A stretch of 64,000 nucleotides of DNA. Origin: Paraphysoderma sedebokerense (Eukaryota > Blastocladiomycota > Physodermatomycetes > Physodermatales > Physodermataceae). The notes beneath the pieces are model-generated. The model was not told the DNA's origin. It worked only from the letters and a program-made list of their open reading frames with translations, and ran no database searches. Of this stretch, positions 14,968 through 62,488 are shown piece after piece. The position numbers and the translations under genes are program-made. Each line of letters opens with the position of its first letter. Position 1 is the stretch's first letter. The stretch spans positions 48,240 to 112,239 of the forward strand of contig JAHLJZ010000076.1 in the NCBI GenBank assembly GCA_025602915.1, read 5' to 3'.

Positions 14968-17900
14968 ATGCTATTCAAGATGCCAGGACTCATCTGGTCT
15001 ATTATTGCCTCGTTTCTTCTACATCAGGTAGCACTAGCTGCAAAAATAACAGTGAAGAATGCTACCTTCAACAACGTAGAGGTAGCATTAGATAATTTCG
15101 ACCCTAAATACTTAATTGGCCAACAAACCTATTATGTTTCCAATGACAACAGCAGCAGCAGCATCGTGGAAATGGTAAATTTTCCTTACAATCGAGGTCA
15201 ATCAAACAATACAAATTCATCAATGTGGAATGATTTATAAATAGTGGACTCCTTGGGATAAAGATCATATAATCACCATCCTGCGCGCAATGTCGAAATA
15301 CGTCGACTTAACAGACGTGCATTTTAATCTAGTTCAGACAGGGTGGGGTAAGTTCAAATTATAACTTGAAGTTACTTCTGAGTAGAAGTTGAGTTGTCAG
15401 ATGTGCTTCGTCGACTTATATTGTTTCTTATCTTATTGTCATTCAGGGGAGGTGGCGGCTGCTCCAATATGTCATAATTCCACCGCTCCTTGTCCCGACA
15501 TAATCTCTCTCGGTACAACTCAACTTGCAGGAAGAGTACTCGACGGCACTGTAGAGCCACTTGATTCTTACTTGGCTGATTGGCAATATGAAAAGGGGTT
15601 TCCACTCACCGACGAGTAAGGTTTCTTTAATTGCTCCTAGGTTAGGTTAGGATTTAATCCTCCGATTTTTAACAAATTGACAATTTTGCATGTAGTATCG
15701 TGAAATTTGCATTCTATGACTACTACATAAATGGTTCATTTGCGGGTCTGCCTATAATTTCCGACTATCGTTTGCTTTTTTTCAATCGAACAACGTTTGA
15801 CAGACTCAATCTGGTGGGTCTTTTCCTCGGTATTCCATATTATTACACAAATGCCTGAATGACACGAATGTGTAGACTTACCCACCGCCGCTCGGAGACT
15901 GGGGGCTTCCAAGTTGGCAAAACTGGACGTGGGAGAAGTTTACAGAATACGCCATAGATATTGCCAACGATTTGGGCCACGGAAACGGCTTTAAATTTTC
16001 AAGCGGGTGGGACGAAGAACTTAAAGTTTTTCAAGCCTTGTAAGTAACGTCCATAATCTATATCGATTGATACTTAACATAATTTAACGTGAATTTGAAT
16101 GAATAGGTTGCAAAACTACGCCACCGGTTTTTTAGATTTTCGTACTGGAAAATGCGGCCTGGAATCCCCGGCAGCAATTTCTGCCATCAAAAATGTCATC
16201 TATAAACTCTACGTCGAAACAAAGGCGGCAGACACGAATTTGTTTTTTCCAAATGACACTGGACATATTAATTGGATACAATCGGAATTAAAAGATCCGC
16301 TTAAAAATCCGATGATTTGTTGTACGGTATGTATTTAAGTTTTCAACATTCCATATATTGCTTCATGTTTAATTATTAATAAGAACCAAAAATGCTCAGA
16401 ATGCTTGGGATCAGTTTGCAAATGGTATTCCTGGAATGGCTATTCATGTCCCAAAGCCTGAAATTATGGGTACAGCAAACTGGACATTTTATGATACTCA
16501 AAGATTACCGAATGCTTCAGACATTGGAATTGCTCATTTACCAGGAAAGACTAATTTTTTGGGTACGTGTTGGATTACACGTTAAACTTCTGTAGTTTGA
16601 CTCGTACGCTTAACGCATTGCTTGAAATCTACTCAAAGGTGGCTCTGGACTTATCTTAACGAAGAAGGGCAAAAACAAAAAAGTAACATGGCAAGTGGTG
16701 AAATATTTATTGAATTCGAACAATGATTTCCTAGACCAAATTGGTTCAACTCAAGGAACCCTTCCACCGTATGAATCAGCGTTGGTATGTAATATAATGA
16801 TATTTGACTAATATTCGTGCGAATCTAATGGCTGACATGTACTTGCATACTTTGGGGAACGAAAGTTGAAATATCCTTGGAACACGAAGGCATACGAAGT
16901 CTCAAGAGAAGCATTAAAACGGTCAGTTTAAGGATTTAAGCATTACTATTGAAAATTAGTTTAAAAAATCAGCGTATTGATATTCTCGTTTCGCCTTCGC
17001 CAAATAGTGCCGTACCACCTCAGTACCCATTGACGACTTTTCCCGAATTCGCGGAAATAGAAAGTCGAAAACCTTTTCGATTGATGATGGCAGAGATGAT
17101 TCAAAAAAACCTTACTGTTGAACAAGCGGCCAACCGTGCCTGCCAAATCATCGATTACATTTTTCAGTTTGTTGATACTCTGTTCCTATTAATACCCAGG
17201 AACGATCTAATTCTTCAATTTTAAACCTAAATCTAACAGACCGAAATGCACGAAAAATGATATGAAAGCCCTACAATCTCAATGTCACGCCAACGGTTCA
17301 GTCATCATCGACTTTGCCTGGAAATCTCCAAAAGTTTGTCGAGACGGTGTGCTTCCCAACATCACCATGATACCTTGCGCGTCTCTTCCATTTGAGAGTG
17401 GCCAATCCATCGCCTTACTCGTATTGACCGCGATTTTGACACTCGTAATACTCCTCGCGTTTGTGGGATTCGTCGTTTTCAGATCCAGGGCTGCAATAAA
17501 ACGGTCTGGCTTTGCCTTTGGTCTGGTCACCATTTTTGGCATGTTCCTCTGCGCCATATCGATAATCCTTGGGTTATTACCTCCAACAAGTCTGAGTTGT
17601 GCATCGTTTGGTGTTTTATTATCTTTCGGGTTTTCATTAGTTTACGGAGCGTATATCACAAAATTGTATCGCATTTTTAAAATTTTTAACAACAAGAAAA
17701 CGACCAAGCAGTCTTTATCAGATGCGGTAATTCTGCGGTATCTCTTAGCTATTGCCAGTGTTGAAGCCGTGGTGTTGATGTTGTGGGTATTCATTGATCA
17801 GCCTGGAGTATCGATGTACTCTACACTGGTTCCCGACGCGGGAGCCGTTCAACAGCCCGTTTGTAAATTTGGATCCTTCGCTGTGATAGTTTTATTGGTT

Positions 17901-18527
17901 TATAATGGCTTGCTGGTTTTCATTGCGTCGGTCATTGCGTGGAAAGGTAACTAGTACTTCCACAACTAATTAAAAACGTCACAAAACCTTCGAAGCTAAC
18001 TGTCCTCTTGATACAGTCAAAGATGTGCCAAGTGACTTCAACGAAACGAAATCGCTGATATTTGCAATGTAAGTAGACATCCACCTGTTATGTACCATCG
18101 GTCCATTTTTGACGCTATCCCACATCCTAGCTATTCTGTTGCATTTCTCTTAGTGATCGTTATCCCAACGACGACTCAGATTGTACAGCCGCAATCTTTC
18201 CAGTCACTTATCCTTTTTAGTACTTTCGCAGCCACTTTTACAACGGTGATTGCATTCACGCTCCCAAAATTATTGGCCGCCTCGAAGAATCATCAATCAA
18301 AAATGAGCAATGCTGCTGCGGTCGGTAATACAAAGGTAACTAGTTCTAATGGCAGTAGCGGTAATATTATATGGTAAATATTCGATCCTTATGAAAATCC
18401 ATAGCCGATACTTCAATGTGATTTAACAATAATTTCATTCATTTATGGCAGCCCCCACTGCAGAAAGGTAATCGTTTTGGGAAGTGCAAATTCGAACGAA
18501 TCGAAGCCATCAGTGAAGCCGCTCTAA
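14968..18527 (+). CDS. Class C (7TM_3) GPCR with a bacterial-type solute-binding ectodomain
   Basis: The ATG at 14968 gives a signal peptide (MLFKMPGLIWSIIASFLL…ALAA). The ectodomain, read across introns from about 15240 to 17390, resembles bacterial family 1 extracellular solute-binding proteins (MalE-like): segments such as DSYLADWQYEKGFPLTD, FAGLPIISDYRLLFFNRTTF, NGIPGMAIHVPKPEIMG and GSGLILTKKGKNKKVTWQ fit that fold, with many N-glycosylation sites. From about 17390 there are seven hydrophobic segments (beginning SIALLVLTAILTLVILLAFV); the last ends in FTLPKL, resembling the class C TM7 motif. The short cytoplasmic tail after an intron near 18374 ends at 18527; that last join is less certain. 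The likely role is a plasma-membrane G-protein-coupled receptor for a small extracellular solute. The ligand is unknown. The classical class C cysteine-rich linker was not seen, so it is GABA-B-like in layout. Confidence 0.8.
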
Positions 18528-25424: not shown

Positions 25425-28400
25425 TTAAGCCTCCCTGTCTTCATCGAGTTGATCTACCAAGATTTCAATCTGATCAGGGTCCTCCAATCGCCGCATCTGG
25501 TGTGAAGAGTTTCGATCCATCGACAGTTCTCGCTTCGAAGTCGGCCAAAGAGACTGAATCCACACAGGATCAGCAGGGCCCCCATCAGCAGGGTCATCGA
25601 TATCACCATTTAATTCAGATTCATCACCCTGCCCTGAGCGTCTGGGGGATCTACTAGTTCTCGTTTTACGGCGTTTCAACTCAGCATTTAAATTAGTTTC
25701 TTTAACCAACAACCTAGCCAATGTAGATTTTTTAAGACTTCCTTCTGTGATGTTATTGCTTTCGACACTGGAGGTTGTACTGCTTTTTCTGGTTCGTCCT
25801 AGAGTACTTCCCAATCGTGAAAGTGTAAACGATCTTTTCCGTTTTGGCCGACCATTCCGTTTTAACCAGCGTTTGACAGCGTTTTGAATCAAAATTGCTG
25901 CATACAACCTGGCTACATTCTCGAAAACGAACTCGGCATATACTTCATCAAATGGTCTCGGCTCAAACATTCGCACTAATCTAACAGTCATTCTTGTTTT
26001 CTTTGCTTTTTCATATGTCAGCTGCTTCACGATTTCATTCGGTAAGTCACGACCCCACGTTGCGACAAATAAACTATTCAGCACGTCAATGTAAATAAGC
26101 CTATCTCCGTATACATTCACATCCGAAAAGGCGGCCTGGATGTGTAACTTTCTGTTATCTTTGAATGCTAACGGAGGCTCAAGTCGTTTATAAAGCTCAA
26201 TAAGATCTGAGAGTTGGATTATCTGGGCATGACCATAATCATATTGGATCCATAATGCGTGAAAATGGTCAATGGATTTTTCAATGTCGACGATAAGTTC
26301 ATTGTTACCAATCCAGTAATGAAATGAATCGACAACAATGGCGATGAAGGCGTTGAGTAGTATCCAATTCATAATAAATTGGAGACTAAGGAAAAATATC
26401 GGAGCCCACGGATAGCCACTGTTGATTGCCATTAGGACATGATGTGAGTTAAAAACTGGAACAACCAAGGCGGAATTACTTTAAGAGCGACTACATACCA
26501 GTTGCCTTTTTCGACCTCGCAGAATGGGGGTTGAACCATGCAATTTGCCATGATGCCTGGCCAATTCTATGGCGTGTAAAGTGAGAAAAATACAATAAAA
26601 TTTGACAGTGGAAGCACCCATACCTCTCCAGATGACATTGTATAGACCGTCAACAACGACTTTCCGAAATTCTGAAAATTCAAATCACTATTTAACCCAC
26701 CTTTATCAACAAATTTCATAGTTCCGAAGAATTGGACTCCTAACAGAGCATACGAATAGCATAACAGAAACATCAACACAAATACATTGAATAACCCAGC
26801 GGCGTTCATAATAAAAGATAGTATCAATGCATTAAAGCCTTTCGCGGTCGGAAATAATTTGATGACTCGAAGTATGCGAAGGAGGAGAAACACGTTGGGG
26901 ATCGTCACAGCAAATACGGATCGAACGATAAGAGACACAATGCCAAGTACAACAACAAGAATTTTGAGAATGTTCCACTTATCGGACACGAGGACACGCC
27001 AACCAAGTCCCAAGTACAGAAGAGATATCTCGATGATATAGAGGCAAGTGAAGATAATTTCCATTACGTTTTGGAACAGTTCAAATGTCAGATCATCAGA
27101 TCGGTTTATCAGGAGAACAATAATATTAACAGCGACAATAGTCAATCCCAGTCGACGAAACGTAGAGGTAGTCACAACTTTTTGAATTTTTCTACGGAAC
27201 TGAGACTTCTGAACTGTAGGGGGTCGGGGTGGTTTGATCAGGAACAAATATTTCATATTTGTCAATAGCTGTTTTTGTTCTTCCGATAACAACTTTAATC
27301 CATGGAGGTTATCTTGATGGCGCTGGAGTTGGTGCGGAGAAGCGTTATTTCAAGGAATACAGGACACTGTCTTGGAAGGGGAACAAACCTTGAATAAATC
27401 AAATATAAGACCAGTAACGACGGAGAGGAAAAACCAATTGCCAATCTTAAACCGAGGAAGGAGTCAACAGAAATCCAAAAAGTGAATGAAGAAAGCAGTA
27501 CGCACCAATTCGACGCCAACGAAAAATACTGACGACGATAAGCTGGCATCTCGAACGGGAGGACCATCAATGTCTTGAATATCTATATATCGGTACATAT
27601 CGTCCGGCCTGCGGAAGTACACGAAATAAGAATATAAAATAAGCAACTAAACATATCGACAAAACCTACCATCCTTCCTGCAACACAATTACGAAAGTAG
27701 AAAGCAGGCTCTGAAAGATATCATCGTAATACAGACGATGAGGATGCCATATCCTTGGCACTGGCTCAACTTCGTTCGGAGGAATGAAAGAACCGGTGCA
27801 TTCGGCTTTACTTTTTGAAATGTCGGTACACTAGTATTTGTAGAATACCAATGTGATCAGTACAATATATTCGCCAACCTATAATGTAAATGAAAACTAC
27901 CTGATATCCAAATCCGATAAACATATGAAGACCGAGAATTGCCGAAGCAAACAGGAAAGTGATGAATGGAAATAAAGCGGTCTGTAATGTCGGTAGAGTT
28001 TTCAGGACAGCTGTCGTGACAACTCTCAAAGGTTTTGCCATTTTTATCAGTTTCAATAATCGAACGGTACGAATTAGACTCCAGAACCTGATATTTGGGT
28101 ATAAAACATCAACAAAGGCAATCCAATTCATTAAAACGACCACGGCATCAACAGAATTCCAAAATCTATGAAGTGAGGTTTCTGATTTGAGTACAAAATT
28201 GGTGCCGATAACATTGAAAATCAATTCAAAAGTAAATAGAGAAGCAAAAACGACATCTAGGTTGCGCCGAGTTCTTATTTCATCGGATGTAGCTATTGCA
28301 GTCGGCGGTTCAAATGCCAAGACAACACACGAGGCGAGAGTAATTGCGAGGCAAGGGTATGTATAAAATCGTGTTCGAACGGCTTCGGCAATTTTCTTAT

Positions 28401-30831
28401 GTAGTGCTAATATGTATGAGCGAGGGGACGAATTCGACGACGAGTGTTCTTGCAATGGGCCAATGACGTCGTCAGATGAAGAAGGACTTGGAGAGTTCAA
28501 TAATTTGGAACGAAGACGGCGGTAGATTGGGTTTAATAGAAAATCAGCAGAGGAGGCAGTGCCGCCGGATACCATATCTTCTTGTCCTTCAGAGACACTA
28601 TCTCCGATTTTCACATCCAAAGGAACTTCTTCAGAATTTAATCTACCTTGAAAATTCTTCGTATTCAGTCGGTTAAAAAATTGGGGCAAGCTGACTTTCC
28701 TCGAGACGTCCAAAAGAGATCGTGATTGGCTTAGATTTCGGAATTCCTTGAAGTGTTCTACCAGAATAATAAGCGGTAAATAAATGTTCTATTTTCAGCT
28801 ATGCTAATCAATCAGGTCTTACCAACAACAATCGTCCATGGATTACTGGGTAGTCTATTCGACAAATCTTTGAGGAATGTGGAAATGATAATGGCCAGAA
28901 GCATTTGGCTTAGTATATATGCGCCAATTATAATGACCATCACGGCAAACAATGTACTCCATATTCCTCTCCCTTGAGCTAACGAAGCTTCGATATCATT
29001 CCAATTTTCGACACTGTACAGCTGAAATATACTTAGGACAGCATACACAAAATTATCGAAGTTGGCTCTTGGCAATCCTTTATCTGGCGCAGAGGGGTCC
29101 AAGTACAGGTATCCACTGAAGAATTGTATTCCGATACAAGCAAAGGCGACAATACTCAAAATCCAAATAGCTATGAGAGACCGAAGTAATGGCCAAGCTG
29201 AGAGTACAATTTTGAGTAGTCGCCGAACTTGAGGGAACAGTCGCATCAAACGGAAAAGGGTGACAGTTCTCAAAAACGCTCGGACAAGCCGAAGTGTAGT
29301 AAGTGGGCCTAACTCGTTTCTTCTATCCGCTAGTTCGACTATGGCAACGACCGTAACGGTGAAATCAATAATGTTGACAACAGATGTGAAGTACTTTTTG
29401 GCGAGGGCTACGAGTTTGATGATAGCTTCTATGGAGAAGCAAGCAGTGAAACCGTAATTGGCGATCGTCAAGGCAGAGCGGTAAGACGGAGACATTCCAT
29501 TATAAATTGCGCCAAGAACAAAAGCATTACTGATAATGACAACAGCGATGAACCGATCAAAAAATCGATGAATGTAGATATCGTATGCCAGCTTTCGAAA
29601 TCTTGGCAGTTCTGCATACTCCTCCCCTGTGAGTCTTACATCGTCGGTACTATCATAGTCGGACTGACTACTAACAGTTGACAGTTGACTAACAGAAGCA
29701 TTAAATTCTGGTGTGGACATAGGCTGGCGCCCCGAAGCAGATAGTGGAGTTGGAGACGCCGAGGGACTTGTCAGGGATGAGGCATCTGAGTTTTCATTTA
29801 AAACGCTTAGTAAGGAATTCGCGGCGACCGAAACCAACAACTGAAGGAGAATGTAGTTCCCGAAAAATATAATCGTCAAGAAGTAAACGATCGAAAGCAC
29901 GCCCGTTCCCTGTTTAATGTGTACCATAATGTCCGACCAACCTTCGGCGGTCAAAATCTGCAAGAATTCATGATTACACAAATTATTAGTTGTTGATACA
30001 TAACACGGTAGTTTTTAGTCTTACCTGGAAGATAGTCAACCATGACGACAAGATATTGTCAAAAGACACGGTCTCGTCTGGGTTATTCGCAACAGACAAA
30101 CATTGCGATCTACTCGGACATGTAAAACCGACCACTGTTGAATTTGAGCATATAAAAGGTGATCCTGAAGGCATTCTGAAAAATGTCCCATCTTCCAACA
30201 CGCATCTCCTTCTCAACACCCCTTCGAATAGTTTCATTCCCATAATTCCCCAAATTAAGAAAAACATGAAGGTCAACACAGCAATGTCTTTCACCAACGG
30301 AATCGACCTTTTCATGGCAACAAGAATAGTGTTGACGCTGCTCAATCCAGGGATCAGTGGTAACACTTTTACAATCACAATCAACCGTAGGGGCGATAGC
30401 GACCCATCATTCAAGTACCAAGTTATGCAGGAAGCGGCGGTGATAAGAAGATCTGTGACATAGAAAGGTTGTGTGAAGAATTGTTTGAATCCAAAGAACA
30501 CGAATTTGAAGAATAAATCGATACTGAATGCTAGAGTTAAATAGTGATCGATAGTTTCCACAGACTTTGTCCATGAAGAAATCGACGACGGTCGGCGGGT
30601 ATACGTTGCCAGTATGGCTGTATTGAAAAGAATAATTATTATAGCGAGAAAAATATAGTATTTTGATTGAAAAAAGATTCTTCCGGCTTTTCGAAACTCT
30701 GAAAAACTAGTCGAGAGGGTTCGAATTGAAGTCATGTTAACCTCTTTTTCATTGGAAAAGTCGTGCCCGAGGTTTGAATTCGTTTGTAATTTCATAAGAA
30801 TGTCGCTTGTTTCATTAGAAGAATCTTCCAT
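25425..30831 (-). CDS. CCH1: Voltage-gated calcium channel alpha-1 subunit, Cch1 type
   Basis: Four ion-transport repeats in order. Repeat I: about 30700-29800, opening YYIFLAIIIILFNTAILATY. Repeat II: about 29590-28810. Repeat III: about 28400-27450. Repeat IV: about 27190-26350. Each S5-S6 loop carries a glutamate at the selectivity position: ILTAEGWSD, LYSVENWND, VLQEGWPDD, and MSSGENWPG, the last formed by splicing across an intron that starts after GGAGAG near 26622. This EEEE pattern matches calcium-selective channels. The S4 segments are positively charged (for example LRLVRAFLRTVTLFRLMRL in II and LLLRILRVIKLF in IV). After S6 of repeat IV the cytosolic tail has an IQ-like stretch (YAAILIQNAVKRWLKRN) and a basic Ser-rich end. 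Cch1 with Mid1 forms the fungal high-affinity plasma-membrane calcium system. The start at 30831 (MEDSSNETSDILMK) gives a very short N-terminal region; an upstream exon is possible. Confidence 0.92.
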
Positions 30832-31282
30832 TGGTAATAAGCATGATGTGTTCTCAAAGGTCTAACGTAAGAAAAGTAATGGAATTAGCCACCATCCCTA
30901 TACAAAGCCGTCTTGGAATGTTGTGAAAATAAATACCAGAGAGTACTAAATCAAACACCGAAGAGCTACAGACATATACGGTAAATAAATTAGAGAATCA
31001 GTGCATTCATATGTGGTTAGTTGATGTCTGGATGTGCCGAAATCAAATTTTTCAACCGGAATCACCAAAGCAACACGGAACGCCCTTGCCACAATGAACT
31101 TGCTTCGTTAGCTCCCTTTGGAACTTCTTACAATCAGTACACTACTATATATTAAAAATAACACATTGAACATTATCGAGTAGAATAGATGTATAGACAT
31201 GGACACTATTTTGTGCGTTGTAAACTGCCTAAAAAATGCATACACTACATGAACGAAGGAGATACAACAGTATTCACTGTAA
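30832..31282. other. Gap between two minus-strand genes
   Basis: AT-rich sequence, calcium channel upstream flank and deacetylase 3' flank. A 60-codon hydrophobic frame at 31108-31290 on the minus strand overlaps the deacetylase stop and looks like chance. Confidence 0.4.
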
Positions 31283-47737: not shown

Positions 47738-48654
47738 CGTGATATTTAAAAAGATCCGTCGAATTTATGAGTGAAAATTGAAGGTAGCGATAGCTGATTC
47801 GGGAACTGACAGGAAGGAATGATGCGAATTGCGCTGTAAGGGAATAGACCTAAATAAACACTACACAACAGCGATAGAGATAGCCAACACCGAGAAATGT
47901 ATGGATTCACTCCTTATAATAGCCAATAGCTAAATTTATGATCCATTGGCAGTATTATCGTCCTTGTTGCTTCTTTCGTGAAGGGGCAGGAATTTAATAT
48001 TTGGTACAACGGTACAGGCGCGACGTGAGAAAAAATGTGGCATCGCCTCTCGAGAATTGTCTGTTCGGTAAGACAAAATAAATATCAAATTACACTCAAT
48101 AATTATTAGTGACAATTAAAATATTGGACGGATAGCAGTGCGGGTTCATTCTTTGGAGAATTCTATACTAAACTCGATATGAACAAGTAGAAAACGGGAA
48201 GCCATCTCATCTGCGGATCGATGTCGCAAGCTTTTAATTTCGTTAACTCAGCACCTTATTATGTCGATGCAAAAGTGACATGTGGCATGGTAGGGTCGTG
48301 GGGATTGATTCTGCGGATTCTATATTCTGGGTTAAATTACTTATTTCATTTCGATCTGCCAACAACAACTAGGTGGATAATTTGAATTCGGAAGTCACTG
48401 AATTATCAAGTTTGAACAATAAGGATAGTATTCTTTACTCCTTTATTCCTGCGTGCCCATTTATGTCTTTGCCAAGATTACGAGATCAGTGTTGCCATCA
48501 CCCTTACCCTAAAGACTAAAGTCACCTGCCCCTCATGCTCGGTCGAGATTGAATGGACATCAGTAATTCGACCCTCGTCGTCGTCTGCTGTCTTTCGTTA
48601 AAATCGATTACCCTCCACATCTATCCTATTTTCACTCAACCCCAATTGTCTAAA
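47738..48654. other. Intergenic region between divergent transporter genes
   Basis: About 920 bases with promoters for the NIPA (minus) and MFS (plus) genes. No gene, RNA or repeat recognised. Confidence 0.4.
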
Positions 48655-52559: not shown

Positions 52560-53126
52560 AATTCAAAGTTCGATTTGGTATATATATATTTGTCTGTCAG
52601 CCGATGGCTGCGTCTCTTAATTCGAGTCGAATCTCCAACCCATTTGGTCGACTGTAAATGAGCTTTGTGGAACTGTAGAATATGAATGCATATATTGTTT
52701 TAATGGATCAATACTATCAATAACGGTATTCAAAAAAATAAAGATGAATATCCACGGCATGCCAGAAATGGAACATTTCAGCAAATATCAACCAGATTCT
52801 CTACAGCGATCCCGATTCCGCTGTCCAAATTGATGACCAGAACTTTCGTAATTAATTTAGTAGTGTCAAAATAAGCAAAAAAACCACAAAATTGAGTTTA
52901 AAACCTAGTCCAATAGCCCAACTGTTTACTATAATATATCGTGACGAAATACTGACGATGCTGAGATGTCTGGAGTCATCCAAGGTTAACTCTCGACTTA
53001 TATATCATTGAATATCCGAACACCTTTAGGCTAAATTTGGCGCTATCTCGCGGATTCGCAAACTGTTCTCAGCATTTTTGGCAGCTTTTTCAAAATTGCA
53101 AAAGGTCGCCAATCGTCTATATCTAG
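52560..53126. other. Intergenic region upstream of the class A receptor
   Basis: AT-rich, about 560 bases. A first exon of the receptor gene probably lies in the right-hand part (53000-53126) but I could not fix it. No other feature seen. Confidence 0.35.
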
Positions 53127-54356
53127 CCTTTTTCAACATGCTCCCTTCAAGATGGGATAGGCGAGAAAGAAGTACTCACACCAACTATCATTGGATGTCT
53201 CTTGAACACATTACTTCTAATTCGCATTTACAAATGTCGAAAAACTTTGAAAGTATTTCATATGGCGCTTGTGAATATGGTTTTAAGTGACACATTGTGT
53301 TCTTACTCTAGTCTGGTGTATTATGGTGCACTTGTAGTGGATTCAATTAGCCCAGACTATTTTTGGTGCCCCTTTAGCAGTACAGAATTGGTATTGCTAT
53401 TAGGTGAGTTTCACCTGTTGCTACTGAAAATGTGATGGATATTATTCAAATATTTGTTTCTGCTTTACAATATTATCTATGTGCCGTTGTTTTCATTTAG
53501 GTTTGTCCTTTACCTCTGCAGCCATTATTAGTGTGGAGCGATATTTTCAGATAGTGTCAGGAAAGACAACTACCTATAAAAAAATGTTCTGGGTTCTGTG
53601 TTGTGTTTGGGTGTTCCATATTTCAGTTGGGGTTTATCCAATTATGGTAAATATGGACATAGTCAGTCAGGCGTCTGAGGTTCACTGTTTGCCGGACTTT
53701 CGCCGGAGCGACATAGTGCATCAGTCTTATGGAGCGTTTTTGGTAACGCTAGATGCTTGTGTGTTGCTCATTATAACTCGTTCATATTACAAAATCTGGC
53801 GAAAAGCTATTGCCGATGGCTTCAAATGGAAGGACAAATCCTTCGTTGATGCCAACGCGATGGAACAGCCCCAGAGACGTATACAAGACCAACCCGCAAG
53901 ACTGGAGGAGGATGAAGCCAATACCTTGTCTCGGATTCCTACAGAATCTTCCTATGGTAGTGTGATGTTTCCAAAGAAATCGCTAGGAGGAACACATAGT
54001 TCAGAAACTGCGACTTCGCGGCAACTAATTACTGCCCATTCTCAACAAATGGCGATGACGAAAAGGCTCGCCACAATTACCTTTGCCTTGTACCTTGGTA
54101 TGAAGTATCTTCTTGACTTGCCGAGCCCCCATCAATTGTTAATACTGTTGTTAATTTATTAGCCTGGGTAGGTAGCCTGTTTTCTTTTTCGTATCAAATG
54201 TATACGGGAGAACACGTCAGTGCCCTTCTAGACTGGTCTCTGGGATCGCTTCATTACAGCCACTGTATTCTCAACCCAATAATCATTCTAATAATGGACT
54301 CTCGATGGAAAATTAATTTCACATTACCGCGGCGTAATCTGGCTTATGGTATATAA
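53127..54356 (+). CDS. Rhodopsin-like (class A) seven-transmembrane receptor
   Basis: Exons joined by eye give seven membrane segments with class A landmarks. TM1: LTPTIIGCLLNTLLLIRIY, with the TM1 asparagine. TM2: LVNMVLSDTLCSYSSLVYYG, with the L-x-x-x-D pattern. A cysteine before TM3: SPDYFWCPFSSTELV. TM3 ends SAAIISVERYFQIV, where E-R-Y replaces D-R-Y. TM4 has tryptophans (MFWVLCCVWVFHISVG). TM5: GAFLVTLDACVLLIITRSYY. A long third loop (about 80 residues, Gln/Ser/Glu-rich) precedes TM6. TM7 is HYSHCILNPIIILIMDSRW, with N-P-x-x-[IL] replacing N-P-x-x-Y. The expected retinal lysine in TM7 is a histidine, so it is not an opsin. The last exon starts after TTATTAG near 54161. The true 5' end is unresolved; the start given is an acceptor site. 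It should couple to heterotrimeric G proteins; ligand unknown. Confidence 0.72.
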
Positions 54357-55410: not shown

Positions 55411-57206
55411 ATGACTTAACTTCTCATCGTAACCATACTCGCGTTGTGTTCCCTTCTGATACATTCTGCTCCTTTAGATTCCAATGAATATATTGTTCAA
55501 CTAAAAAATGACGCAAGTTCGACAACTTGTATGTTTACTTCCATTACTTCCATTTGATCCTGCTTCATCATATTTGTTACTACTCTCTAAACCCAAGTTT
55601 ACCTTCCATGCAACCATAGACACAAACCATGCACAAATCATCAGCGGTGATTTTTCAGCCATGGGCGCCCAAAAAGCTATATCCCACAAATTCGAAATCG
55701 GCAGTGGTTTCAAGGGATACTCAACTCGTCTTTCACAGAAACAAGTTCAGCAACTCAAAAATTTGCCAGATGTTGTACGCATAGTGCCGAACTCAAAAGT
55801 CAGATTATTTGACAATGTTTTTACACAAAAAGAACAAGTGATTGAAGACTCAGATATGTGGGGATTGGATAGAATCAATGCCAAACAGGGTCTTGATAAA
55901 AAATATACTTGGACTGTTGATGGTTCCGGCGTTGATTGCTATGTTGTTGACACTGGAATCATGTCCACACATAATGAGTTCAAAGGCAGGGTAATTCAAG
56001 GAGGTACGTTCTATAAATGAATCTATTTTCTAGATTTTAGATTTGACCTTTCTATTAAATTTGCATTAGCATCCTTCATTGAGAATGAAGATACCGATTT
56101 GCACGGACACGGTAAGTGACTGCTGTTCCGGAGTCGCGGAATGATCTAGGAAATTTAACAGCACTTTTTAGGCTCCCATGTGGCCGGTATTATAGCCGGA
56201 GAAACTTACGGTGTGGCAAAAAATTGTACTCTTGTGCCCGTAAAAGTCGTTAGCAATTCAGGGGGAGGTTCTCTTGAGACAATTTTGGCCGGTCTCAGTT
56301 GGCTTTCTGAATCTGCGAAGCAAAGAAAAAAACCTTCGGTAGTAAATATGAGTTTAGGGACTCCTAAAGTGTATTATTTCATTTATTTCCTCTTCAAAGC
56401 CATTCTTGACTTACGGCATCCCATTTCCCTTTTCATATCAGGAAATGGCCATCGATGACGCAGTAAAGGCTCTTGGTAATTATCAATGTATTAAAAAACC
56501 AACAATCCCGACAGTTTCGAGTACTAATTCATGTGTATATAGTCGATCAAGGAATTGTCGTAGTTGCCGCTGCGGGGAACGACGGCTCAGACGCCTGCGG
56601 ACTGAGTCCGGCTTCAGAACCGAGTGTGAGTCTTCGCTACATTAAAACCCATTCAACAACTCAGTTGATGGTTATTGTCTTTTCAGTTTACTACCTGAAT
56701 TAAACTTCGTTTGTTTACATCTATATCCAGGTCATCACAGTGGGCTCTACGAATAAGGAAGATTCTGTTTCATATTTCTCAAATCAGGGCGGCTGCTTGG
56801 ATGTGCTCGCACCCGGCGAGGACATAAAATCCGCTATCGTCACCACCCCGAATGCATCTGAGATTATGTCTGGCACCTCGTATGTTACAATCGTATTTTC
56901 TCCTGTCTTTCATTCCTAAACTCATCATCAAATTGTTATTTCAGCATGGCTAGTCCTTTCGTAGCGGGTGTTGCAGCCCTTTATCTCTCTGCCAATCCAT
57001 CCGGATCACCTGATACATTCGCAAGATTCTAAAGAACACTGCTACGAAAGATGCTATTGAGGTAATTTTTAATTTTTATCCGATGTATAGCTGTACTTCG
57101 TGCTGATGTCGATGTCTTGCAGCCGAGCTCTCTCCGCGAAAAATTACAAAATCTGCTAGTGTACAGCGGGCTGGACACTAATGTCACCCAGTCTGCCAAT
57201 GAATAG
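55411..57206 (+). pseudogene. Subtilisin-like serine protease, copy A (proteinase K family), disrupted
   Basis: Homologous throughout to copy B. The ATG at 55411 is followed by ACT and then TAA at 55417-55419, a stop at codon 3 inside the signal peptide. The rest of the leader and I9 propeptide are recognisable (EYIVQLKNDASS, NHAQIISGDFSAMG). The catalytic region is preserved: aspartate in VDCYVVDTGIMSTHNEF, histidine in DLHGHG, serine in IMSGTSMASPFVAGV. Near 57024 one base is missing relative to copy B, giving a stop at once (…DTFARF) and loss of the last 45 or so residues. From 55919 to 57024 it reads the same as copy B, introns included. A sequencing error could explain one lesion but two independent ones favour a pseudogene. 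An ATG at 55508 opens a frame that reads through intron 1 into the propeptide; whether it is used is unknown. Confidence 0.85.
55919..57024 (+). repeat. Identical block shared with copy B (first partner)
   Basis: By eye every line I compared between 55919-57024 and 58532-59637 (constant offset 2613) is the same, including four or five introns, while sequence on both sides differs at many positions. Sharp identity borders inside otherwise diverged paralogues suggest gene conversion or a very recent unequal exchange; an assembly collapse error is the other option. Confidence 0.85.
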
Positions 57207-60715: not shown

Positions 60716-62488
60716 ATGTTTAGACTTTCCCTCATCACCGCTTTTGCATTATATGCCCTCGTGCAATCAGCTCCACTTGAGCCCACTGAATATATTGTTC
60801 AATTGAAGACAGATGCGAGCCTTGAGACATGTACGTTTCCTCAGAATTCTTGTGCAAGCAGCGTGCTCTCACAAAAACTCACGCGATCAATCATTTTAAA
60901 GTTGCCAACCGTCTTAACAACCTCAGCGGTGAATTTTCGATCATGAGCTTTACCGAAACGATAGCCCAACAATTCAAAATTGGCAACGCGTTCCAAGCTG
61001 CATACACAACCAAACTTTCTCCTCAACAAGTTGAGCAAATCAACGCCCTACCAGAGGTCGCAAGTATTGTACCAAACTTGGAATTCAGCGTATTTAATGA
61101 CATTCCGTCACAGAAGGAACAATTTATCGATGACTCGAATATGTGGGGATTAGATAGAGTCAACGCTAAGAAAGGTCTTGATCAAAAATACACTTGGACT
61201 GTTGACGGTTCCAACGTTGATTGCTATGTCGTTGACACGGGGATCATGGCCTCGCATCATGAGTTCGAAGGAAGAATCATACAAGGAGGTATGTTGCCGG
61301 TAAAAATATACCCCCTTGAATGAAAATTAATTTATATTATTACGTTTAGCATCTTTCATTCAAAATGAGGATACTGATTTACATGGACATGGTAAGTATT
61401 ACAAATTTAAATTATCTTGGCATATATTGACGCAAAGATAATTAAATCTTAGGTTCACATGTGGCCGCTATTATGGCTGGTGCATCCTACGGTGTTGCAA
61501 AGAACTGTAGCATTATCCCTGTTAAAATATTTAACCGCTTGGGCAGAGGTTCCTTCACGACAATTATAGCGGGACTCAGCTGGATTGCAGAATCTGTTAA
61601 ACAAAGAAAGAAACCCTCTGTCGTAAATATGAGTTTAGGTGGCCCAAAGGTAAGCTCATGTCCATAGTTAGATTTCTGCATTTGTTCATAACTTTTTTTT
61701 TAGACACAAACTTTGAACGACGCAGTCAAAGCTCTTGGTACGTGAAACTCCCGAGGTCTAACTTTATGCGATTGAAATACTCACCAGTCATTTTATAGTC
61801 GACCTGGGCATCGTCGTAGTAGTTGCCGCTGGCAATTCTAATTCCGATGCATGCGAATTTAGCCCAGCGTCAGAACCAAGCGTAGGTATTCCTTTCATGA
61901 GCGGTGGCAAATTATATAATATATAATTATGGTCACCCGAATTGAGTGCCACAATTAAAAAATACTGAGTGCTTTTTTAAATCCCTAAAATCTTAAAGGT
62001 AATCACCGTGGGGGCAACGAATAAGAGCGACATCCGTGCGAAATTTTCTAATTATGGCCAGTGTTTGGATGTATTTGCTCCGGGTGAGGACATCAAGTCT
62101 GCAGGTGTTTCAGATGCAAACGCATCTGCTATTATGTCTGGCACATCGTAAGTTGCGGCTACATATTCTTCAATGTTCCACTTGTATTGGAACCAACCTT
62201 TTTGATTTGCCTCTTAGTATGGCTACACCATTTGTTGCTGGAGTTGCAGCCCTGTATCTTTCAGCCAACCAATCCGGAACTGCGGCATCATTCGCAGAAG
62301 TTTTGAAGAAAACTGCAACGGCTGACGCTATTGAGGTAATAACCGTTCACTAACTGTTGTTGTATTATTCACTGACAACCTGTGTGCCATCTTAGCCGAG
62401 TTCCATCATGGCGAATTCACCCAATCTCTTGGTCTATAGCTTACTTGACTTTAATAGCTCTGAACCTATCAAGGAACAACATGATTGA
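60716..62488 (+). CDS. Secreted subtilisin-like serine protease, copy C
   Basis: An intact but more diverged paralogue with the same exon plan as copy B. Signal peptide MFRLSLITAFALYALVQSAP, propeptide (PTEYIVQLKTDASLET … SPQQVEQINALPEVASIVPN), and catalytic motifs VDCYVVDTGIMASHHEF (Asp), DLHGHG with SHVAAIMAGASYG (His), and IMSGTS joined to MATPFVAGVAALYLSANQSG (Ser). The oxyanion region reads IVVVVAAGNSNSDACEF. The C-terminus differs from copy B: LVYSLLDFNSSEPIKEQHD and the stop at 62486-62488. Some substrate-region positions vary (NRLGRGSF against SNSGGGSL in copy B), which could alter specificity. No anchor, so probably fully secreted. Confidence 0.92.

Follow-up and report, generated by a model that had tools for sequence, protein, structure and literature searches.

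A dispersed and probably disabled copy from a large predicted class A GPCR family of Paraphysoderma sedebokerense

A receptor locus at ~53.1–54.36 kb on the + strand of the window, the whole stretch of 64,000 nt analyzed here, is assigned from sequence to the class A (rhodopsin-family) GPCRs, a membership made firm by its family. With reasonable confidence we favor the reading that it is a dispersed copy of that family, frame-shifted by a 20-nt deletion and likely without a seven-helix product, and that the intact members are chemosensory. The window covers positions 48,240–112,239 (forward strand) of contig JAHLJZ010000076.1 (C76) in the P. sedebokerense assembly GCA_025602915.1, which comprises 27.3 Mb in 195 contigs.

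Results and Discussion

A sequence-only reading of the window had presented 53127–54356 as one receptor stretch. Receptor sequence is indeed there, but it is not continuous: the listed motifs are spread over three open frames, in fact three exons and two introns (Table 1). Position 53127 is merely the first codon after a stop, TAG preceding it, and is not the gene start. Joining 53403 to 53501 and 54097 to 54163 gives a single open frame to the stop codon. Both introns are placed identically in 24 accepted paralogue models, where the first measures 53–102 nt and the second 58–109 nt, and both are directly visible in the sequence of the sibling L021_3076. The exon boundaries predicted for the window gene are settled by these paralogues. 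A frameshift in TM6, as the frame change at 54098–54162 might suggest, was rejected, this segment being the conserved 65-nt intron common to the paralogues.

Table 1. Predicted features of the receptor locus and of the class C receptor exon in the window
Feature	Position	Strand	Details
7TM exon of class C (7tm_3) receptor, separate gene	17211..17954	+	PF00003, E 8.8e-27
Remnant of original start	53138..53171	+	ATG and N-terminal codons, MLPSRW.. versus siblings' MVVSRW.. / MVPTQW..
Net 20-nt deletion site, frame-shifting	53171..53176	+	N-terminus / TM1 start; pairwise alignment with nearest sibling, gaps of 17 and 3 nt
Exon with TM1, TM2 and first half of TM3	53163..53403	+	Receptor frame; homologous to paralogue TM1–TM3 exons, ≤71% identity; start codon not found
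Intron 1, 97 nt	53404..53500	+	GTGAGT...TTTAG, inside TM3
Exon with second half of TM3, TM4, TM5, long ICL3 and TM6	53501..54097	+	ERY at 53536–53544; KAIADGFKW at 53803–53829
Intron 2, 65 nt	54098..54162	+	GTATGA...ATTAG, inside TM6 just 5' of the conserved Trp
Last exon	54163..54356	+	TM6 end, TM7 with NPIII (NP 54273–54278), helix-8-like MDSRWK, stop 54354–54356

Paralogue models were assembled from 49 second-exon candidates in 20 loci. Eleven lacked a first- or last-exon match, leaving 38 with all three; of these, 26 were joined by a script seeking introns at the expected places, which failed on the other 12. Two models (L028_4303 and L034_7455) were dropped as faulty, so that the alignment holds 24 paralogues and the window copy, and 13 of its 25 rows are in alignment A1. 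A motif following TM5 in ICL3, K-A-x-A-D-G-F-K-W, appears family-specific, its GF being invariant in 13 of 13 aligned members. It is possibly a signature of G protein or arrestin contact.

The class A features named by the sequence-only reading (TM1 Asn, TM2 LxxxD, a pre-TM3 Cys, ERY, and NPIII in TM7) are all present in the window sequence, the Cys preceding the Arg of ERY by exactly 25 residues. An alignment of 13 family members from the same genome keeps TM1 N, TM2 D, pre-TM3 C, the RY of ERY, TM4 W, ECL2 C, TM6 W and TM7 P invariant (N15, D43, C69, W117 and C143 in window-protein numbering), and the Glu of ERY nearly so. The best paralogue of the window protein matches at E 6.3e-61, with 56% identity over the TM3–TM6 exon. 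Invariance across the family and this close paralogue match argue that the motifs are not there by chance. Two canonical motifs are incomplete. The Trp of the TM6 CWxP motif is invariant and its Pro is Gly in the window (AWVG); most aligned family members lack this Pro too, and two aligned siblings have TWSP. TM7 keeps NP with the Tyr of NPxxY replaced (NPIII, that is, NPxxx), and NP occurs in 48 of 62 family TM7 segments, a set from the fetched loci that includes one segment counted twice (overlapping loci L003 and L005). Hydropathy analysis at a strict cut-off found six of seven helices in the window frame, missing TM2, and seven in three of four siblings.

The 7tm_1 profile check proposed in the sequence-only reading gave matches for most family members tried and none for the window protein by itself. 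Searched alone against Pfam with hmmscan, the window protein matched nothing at E 0.1, and only Srx at E 0.75. The listed motifs by themselves would thus be insufficient, and it is the family that settles the class: Pfam 7tm_1 matches 10 of the 13 members at E ≤0.1 (best 6.3e-21). A profile of the 13 members matched 708 PDB sequences at E ≤1, the best being the beta-2 adrenergic receptor (E 9.5e-18). The best 60 of the 708 were all class A receptors, some matched over TM1–TM7 and many over TM1–TM5 only, and in two printed alignments TM6 and the NP motif of TM7 are matched correctly. We give almost no credence to the alternative of a cAMP-receptor-like or fungus-specific GPCR with class A motifs arising by chance. 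The missing Pfam match and the incomplete NPxxY and CWxP motifs of the window protein would fit it; the 7tm_1 and PDB matches of the family stand against it. Moreover, of the 10 families that one or more of the 13 members match at E 0.1, none is the cAMP-receptor family (Dicty_CAR), and ERY and NP stand where fungal cAMP receptors, as described in PMC3251606, have N(S)xY and NS(A)xxY.

The sequence-only reading took the receptor for class A, and for no opsin on account of a His at the retinal-lysine site. Both parts of the proposal are supported, but the reason given for the second is wrong. Six residues ahead of the Asn of NP in TM7, at what we take to be position 7.43, the window protein has Tyr, and the His residues of TM7 lie seven and four before that Asn. 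Across the 62 TM7 segments this position holds F (22), A (8), V (8), S (7), N (4), L (3), I (3), M (2), G (2), Y (2) and E (1), with Lys in 0 of 62 segments from the fetched loci. The Tyr of the window copy and the lack of Lys in these segments speak against a type 2 opsin. The opsin-like class A GPCR of Spizellomyces punctatus differs in carrying the retinal lysine, whereas those of other chytrids lack it (Ahrendt et al. 2017, PMC5410147).

The window copy belongs to a large family. Searching the genome with the 7tm_1 profile gave 44 exon-level places at E ≤0.001, none of them on C76; the same profile had no matches in 14 control genomes. Exon-level searches with the window protein and with a distant sibling gave 109 (E ≤1) and 120 (E ≤0.001) places, respectively, selves included. 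Merging yielded 77 class A loci on 24 contigs, and as these include fragments (e.g., on C8, C58 and C110), we estimate a family of 65–75 genes. Many are clustered. Contig C35 carries ten consecutive minus-strand class A genes at 31.0–48.6 kb (loci L021 and L022), spaced by ~1.5–2.4 kb, and further clusters lie on C53 (7), C58 (10), C16 (5), C90 (5), C8, C24, C9, C18 and others. The TM1 exon of at least one C35 array member (L022, about 4212–4051) is interrupted by an in-frame stop. The window gene, which stands alone, is related by sequence to this array. One scan of viral contigs with a sibling protein found no relatives.

A distinct intronless class A group is found on C9 and C24 (L001, L003, L005 and L008), with LHGILNP in TM7 and CW[AS]VY in TM6. 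Its best 7tm_1 match reaches E 9.6e-24, and two of its members, used as the tree outgroup, stand apart at 100/100. On C58 a G-alpha gene (76.4–77.6 kb) was observed ~3 kb from about ten class A receptor loci at 51.4–73.5 kb.

The nearest kin of the window copy is L021_3076, at 57% identity. The tree pairs the two at 93/93, a support that narrowly misses the tool's 'starred' mark, within an 11-row clade supported at 100/100, and gives the window copy a branch of 0.70 versus 0.34 for its sister. dN between the two is 0.21 and dS is saturated (3.7), which points to purifying selection over most of the history of the copy and to a lesion that is young at most. The NG86 method returned –1 or large dS values, so no dN/dS is given for the window branch. 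Two crude tests of constraint were applied. Unique changes at codon positions 1 and 2 number 24 in the window copy and 2–19 in nine relatives. Of otherwise-invariant positions the window copy changes 11 of 90, two of them adjoining the deletion where the alignment is unsure, compared to 0–6 of 79–85 in eight of nine close relatives; L026_2514, in which no 5' lesion was seen, changes as many (12 of 91). When the divergent L021_4911 is included, the counts become 5/56 for the window copy, 7/58 for L026_2514, 28/79 for L021_4911 and 0–3 of 51–54 for the other eight. Taken together, the branch length, the changed invariant positions and the unique codon changes indicate relaxed constraint on the window sequence.

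The 5' end of the window copy departs from the family pattern. All 24 aligned siblings have a Met in the TM1 exon, 29–40 residues before the TM1 Asn, as a rule with a conserved Trp after it. In 25 of 26 modelled genes the TM1 exon offers an in-frame Met ahead of TM1; the exception is a faulty model. A missing 5' exon was considered, but with the sibling Met inside the TM1 exon it does not fit the general pattern of the family. The homologous ATG is retained at window position 53138, where the first 29 nt are 20/29 identical to L021_3076, an identity reached by 1 of 100000 shuffles. Relative to L021_3076, a net 20 nt are lost between this ATG and TM1, so that it is out of frame with TM1 and runs for 50 codons in another frame before a stop. 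The receptor frame itself has a TAG just before 53127 and its first ATG at 53262, the start of TM2; no in-frame ATG was found before TM2 in the TM1 exon of the window. Fewer than seven helices in the real transcript, which the sequence-only reading had named as evidence against its class A call, may well for this reason apply to the window copy, but not to the family. Probably, then, the copy is a pseudogene, and a fairly young one.

Two other readings were weighed against this one. An intact, expressed gene that makes a working seven-helix receptor, its N-terminus supplied by a non-homologous new 5' exon or by a non-AUG start, is unlikely in our judgment, though it has some evidence in its favor: apart from the 5' end the frame is open over all three exons, both introns are canonical, and the comparison with the sister carries a purifying signal. 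Among 26 formal ATG plus GT..AG combinations in an upstream exon search of 52700–53215, one passes a simple consensus filter (ATG 52833, GT 52848, AG before 53127). It would, however, require a 279-nt intron, longer than the 53–109 nt of the family models, and the old ATG is still there, out of frame, at the place where all 24 aligned paralogues start. The remaining TM1 stretch is also short and has Pro where nine close relatives have Leu. Distinctly improbable is an ordinary intact gene in which the 20-nt deletion reflects a fault of assembly or sequencing, or a single allele. The deletion is seen in a single assembly, and some stretches of that assembly look doubled, yet base-calling errors do not usually look like a net loss of 20 nt. 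An error would also sit poorly with a branch twice as long as the sister's and with conserved positions changed more than in eight of nine close relatives.

The doubling just mentioned was seen as pairs of class C and G-alpha hits with identical scores, at about 15 and 39 kb on C17 and on C54 and C103. It suggests that the C17 and C54/C103 stretches are doubled in the assembly, as haplotigs or recent duplications.

Our favored account of the window copy is thus one of dispersal followed by decay. The copy would have left, or been copied from, the C35-type subfamily with its three-exon structure kept. It would then have been hit by the frame-shifting deletion at the start of TM1, and it probably no longer yields a seven-helix receptor, a presumed loss of function. 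For intact members we propose that the TM bundle would hold a ligand that is extracellular or carried in the membrane, as opposed to covalently bound retinal, and that the ERY/TM6-Trp/NP switch would couple to a heterotrimeric G protein. Given the short N-terminus, a small ligand seems likelier than a large protein. G-alpha matches occur on several contigs (one control genome also matches, below the cut-off), so a partner for class A receptors exists. The likely role is chemosensing, probably by zoospores; both the ligand sensing and the zoospore role are presumptive, the latter resting solely on the flagellar genes of the genome.

These genes also bear on the organism. Radial_spoke_3 (E 2.0e-50), IFT46 (7.8e-44) and the fungal Chitin_synth_1N (2.2e-18) all match in the genome, and each is absent from the 14 controls. 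The sequence-only reading, blind to the source of the DNA, had placed the receptor in a fungus; the Chitin_synth_1N match bears this out, and RSP3 and IFT46 mark the fungus as flagellated. By gene content the genome is that of a zoosporic fungus. Five Zn_clus matches, all weak, were of no further use in placing the species.

The sequence-only reading further implied that a class A GPCR in a fungus is a surprise. That is not supported: such receptors have been known since 2012 (PMC3251606) and now form fungal GPCR class 15 (PMC12842992). Krishnan et al. 2012 described 12 rhodopsin-family GPCRs from Allomyces macrogynus, Batrachochytrium dendrobatidis and Spizellomyces punctatus (3, 1 and 8, respectively), all with ERY and NPXXX (PMC3251606). 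As described there, that set has in common with the present family the TM2 D, ERY at the end of TM3, the ECL1/2 Cys and NPxxx in place of NPxxY, as well as zoosporic hosts with class C receptors (PMC3251606). The present family differs in its 65–75 loci, many in tandem, versus 3, 1 and 8, a comparison made by description only (PMC3251606). The class 15 (7tm_1) survey of Liu et al. 2025 counts 984 sequences, mostly from early-diverging fungi and concentrated in Entomophthoromycotina, and reports class C as abundant in Blastocladiomycota and Chytridiomycota (PMC12842992). The accessible part of that survey mentions no flagellated fungus with a large class A set (PMC12842992). Conidiobolus coronatus, which shares a large set, has 125 GPCRs; for 112 the assignment is to 7tm class A rhodopsin-like, the 7tm GPCR superfamily or the 7tm_1 superfamily (PMC12387763). 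It differs in being an insect-pathogenic member of Entomophthoromycotina, and tandem arrangement and gene structure are not described for its set in the accessible text (PMC12387763). A 2026 review calls the fungal 7tm_1 class XV uncharacterised, as far as its accessible part goes (PMC13308352). The literature listing on chemotaxis and GPCRs, partial in its texts, named no receptor family for chytrid zoospore chemotaxis. Nor did the accessible literature, which lies largely outside subscription journals and so gives weak evidence of absence, show a flagellated fungus with a large class A family in tandem.

The window gene therefore belongs to a known class and matters little by itself. The family offers more. 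It is compact, its gene structure is uniform, its intracellular motifs are conserved and many of its members look intact, so that it supplies concrete candidates, and so large a tandem class A family may be the sensory repertoire of the spores of this fungus. In animals, class A GPCRs serve as the main sensory receptors. Animal chemoreceptors such as the nematode sr genes and the olfactory receptors are class A-like and form large, tandem, lineage-specific families with broken copies. The tandem arrays, divergence and broken copies seen here resemble those families, although only weak Srx and Srsx matches connect the two and there is no evidence of descent. Tentatively, and leaning slightly against rather than for it, we consider that a flagellated fungus may have independently evolved an olfactory-like class A repertoire of ~70 genes, duplicated in tandem and turning over by birth and death, for zoospore chemotaxis. 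Its dead or dying copies would then include the window copy and one or more array members.

The class C receptor reported near the locus by the sequence-only reading is real, lying at 17.2–18.0 kb of the window. So is the closeness of two receptor classes within 40 kb, but it is near chance expectation. The genome has 50 exon-level 7tm_3 places, from which 29 class C points were picked by hand, and 2 of the 77 class A loci (on C76 and C32) have such a point within 40 kb. When 26 class A and 22 class C sites are roughly placed at random, 1.6 such cases are expected, and two or more arise with a probability of 0.47. By this rough test (2 seen versus 1.6 expected), a functional pair of class A and class C receptors is unsupported.

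One observation points in the opposite direction. On C32 (143.7–149.8 kb) a class A gene lies 5 kb from a class C gene and is a close relative of the window gene, from the same subfamily. The class C gene of C32 ranks third by score, after those of C93 and C42, among the four nearest relatives of the window's, with 48% identity. Two members of this small class C subgroup (C76, C93, C42, C32 and C118) thus lie within 40 kb of dispersed class A genes of the window gene's subfamily. The C76 pair (65.5–102.4 kb in contig coordinates) and the C32 pair differ in order and distance, and a copied block is not shown. The parallel pairing, noticed after the fact, may be chance.

Other genes in the window were noted in passing. 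On the – strand at 25425–30861, five ORFs resemble parts of a large voltage-gated-channel-like protein; the one tested, 26567–27349, matches Ion_trans at E 4.7e-25. Downstream of the receptor locus, the similar-looking neighboring genes at 55505–56919 and 60826–61323 look subtilase-like by eye and are apparently a tandem pair. The first of these, the one tested, contains a subtilisin-type propeptide (Inhibitor_I9, E 7.7e-9).
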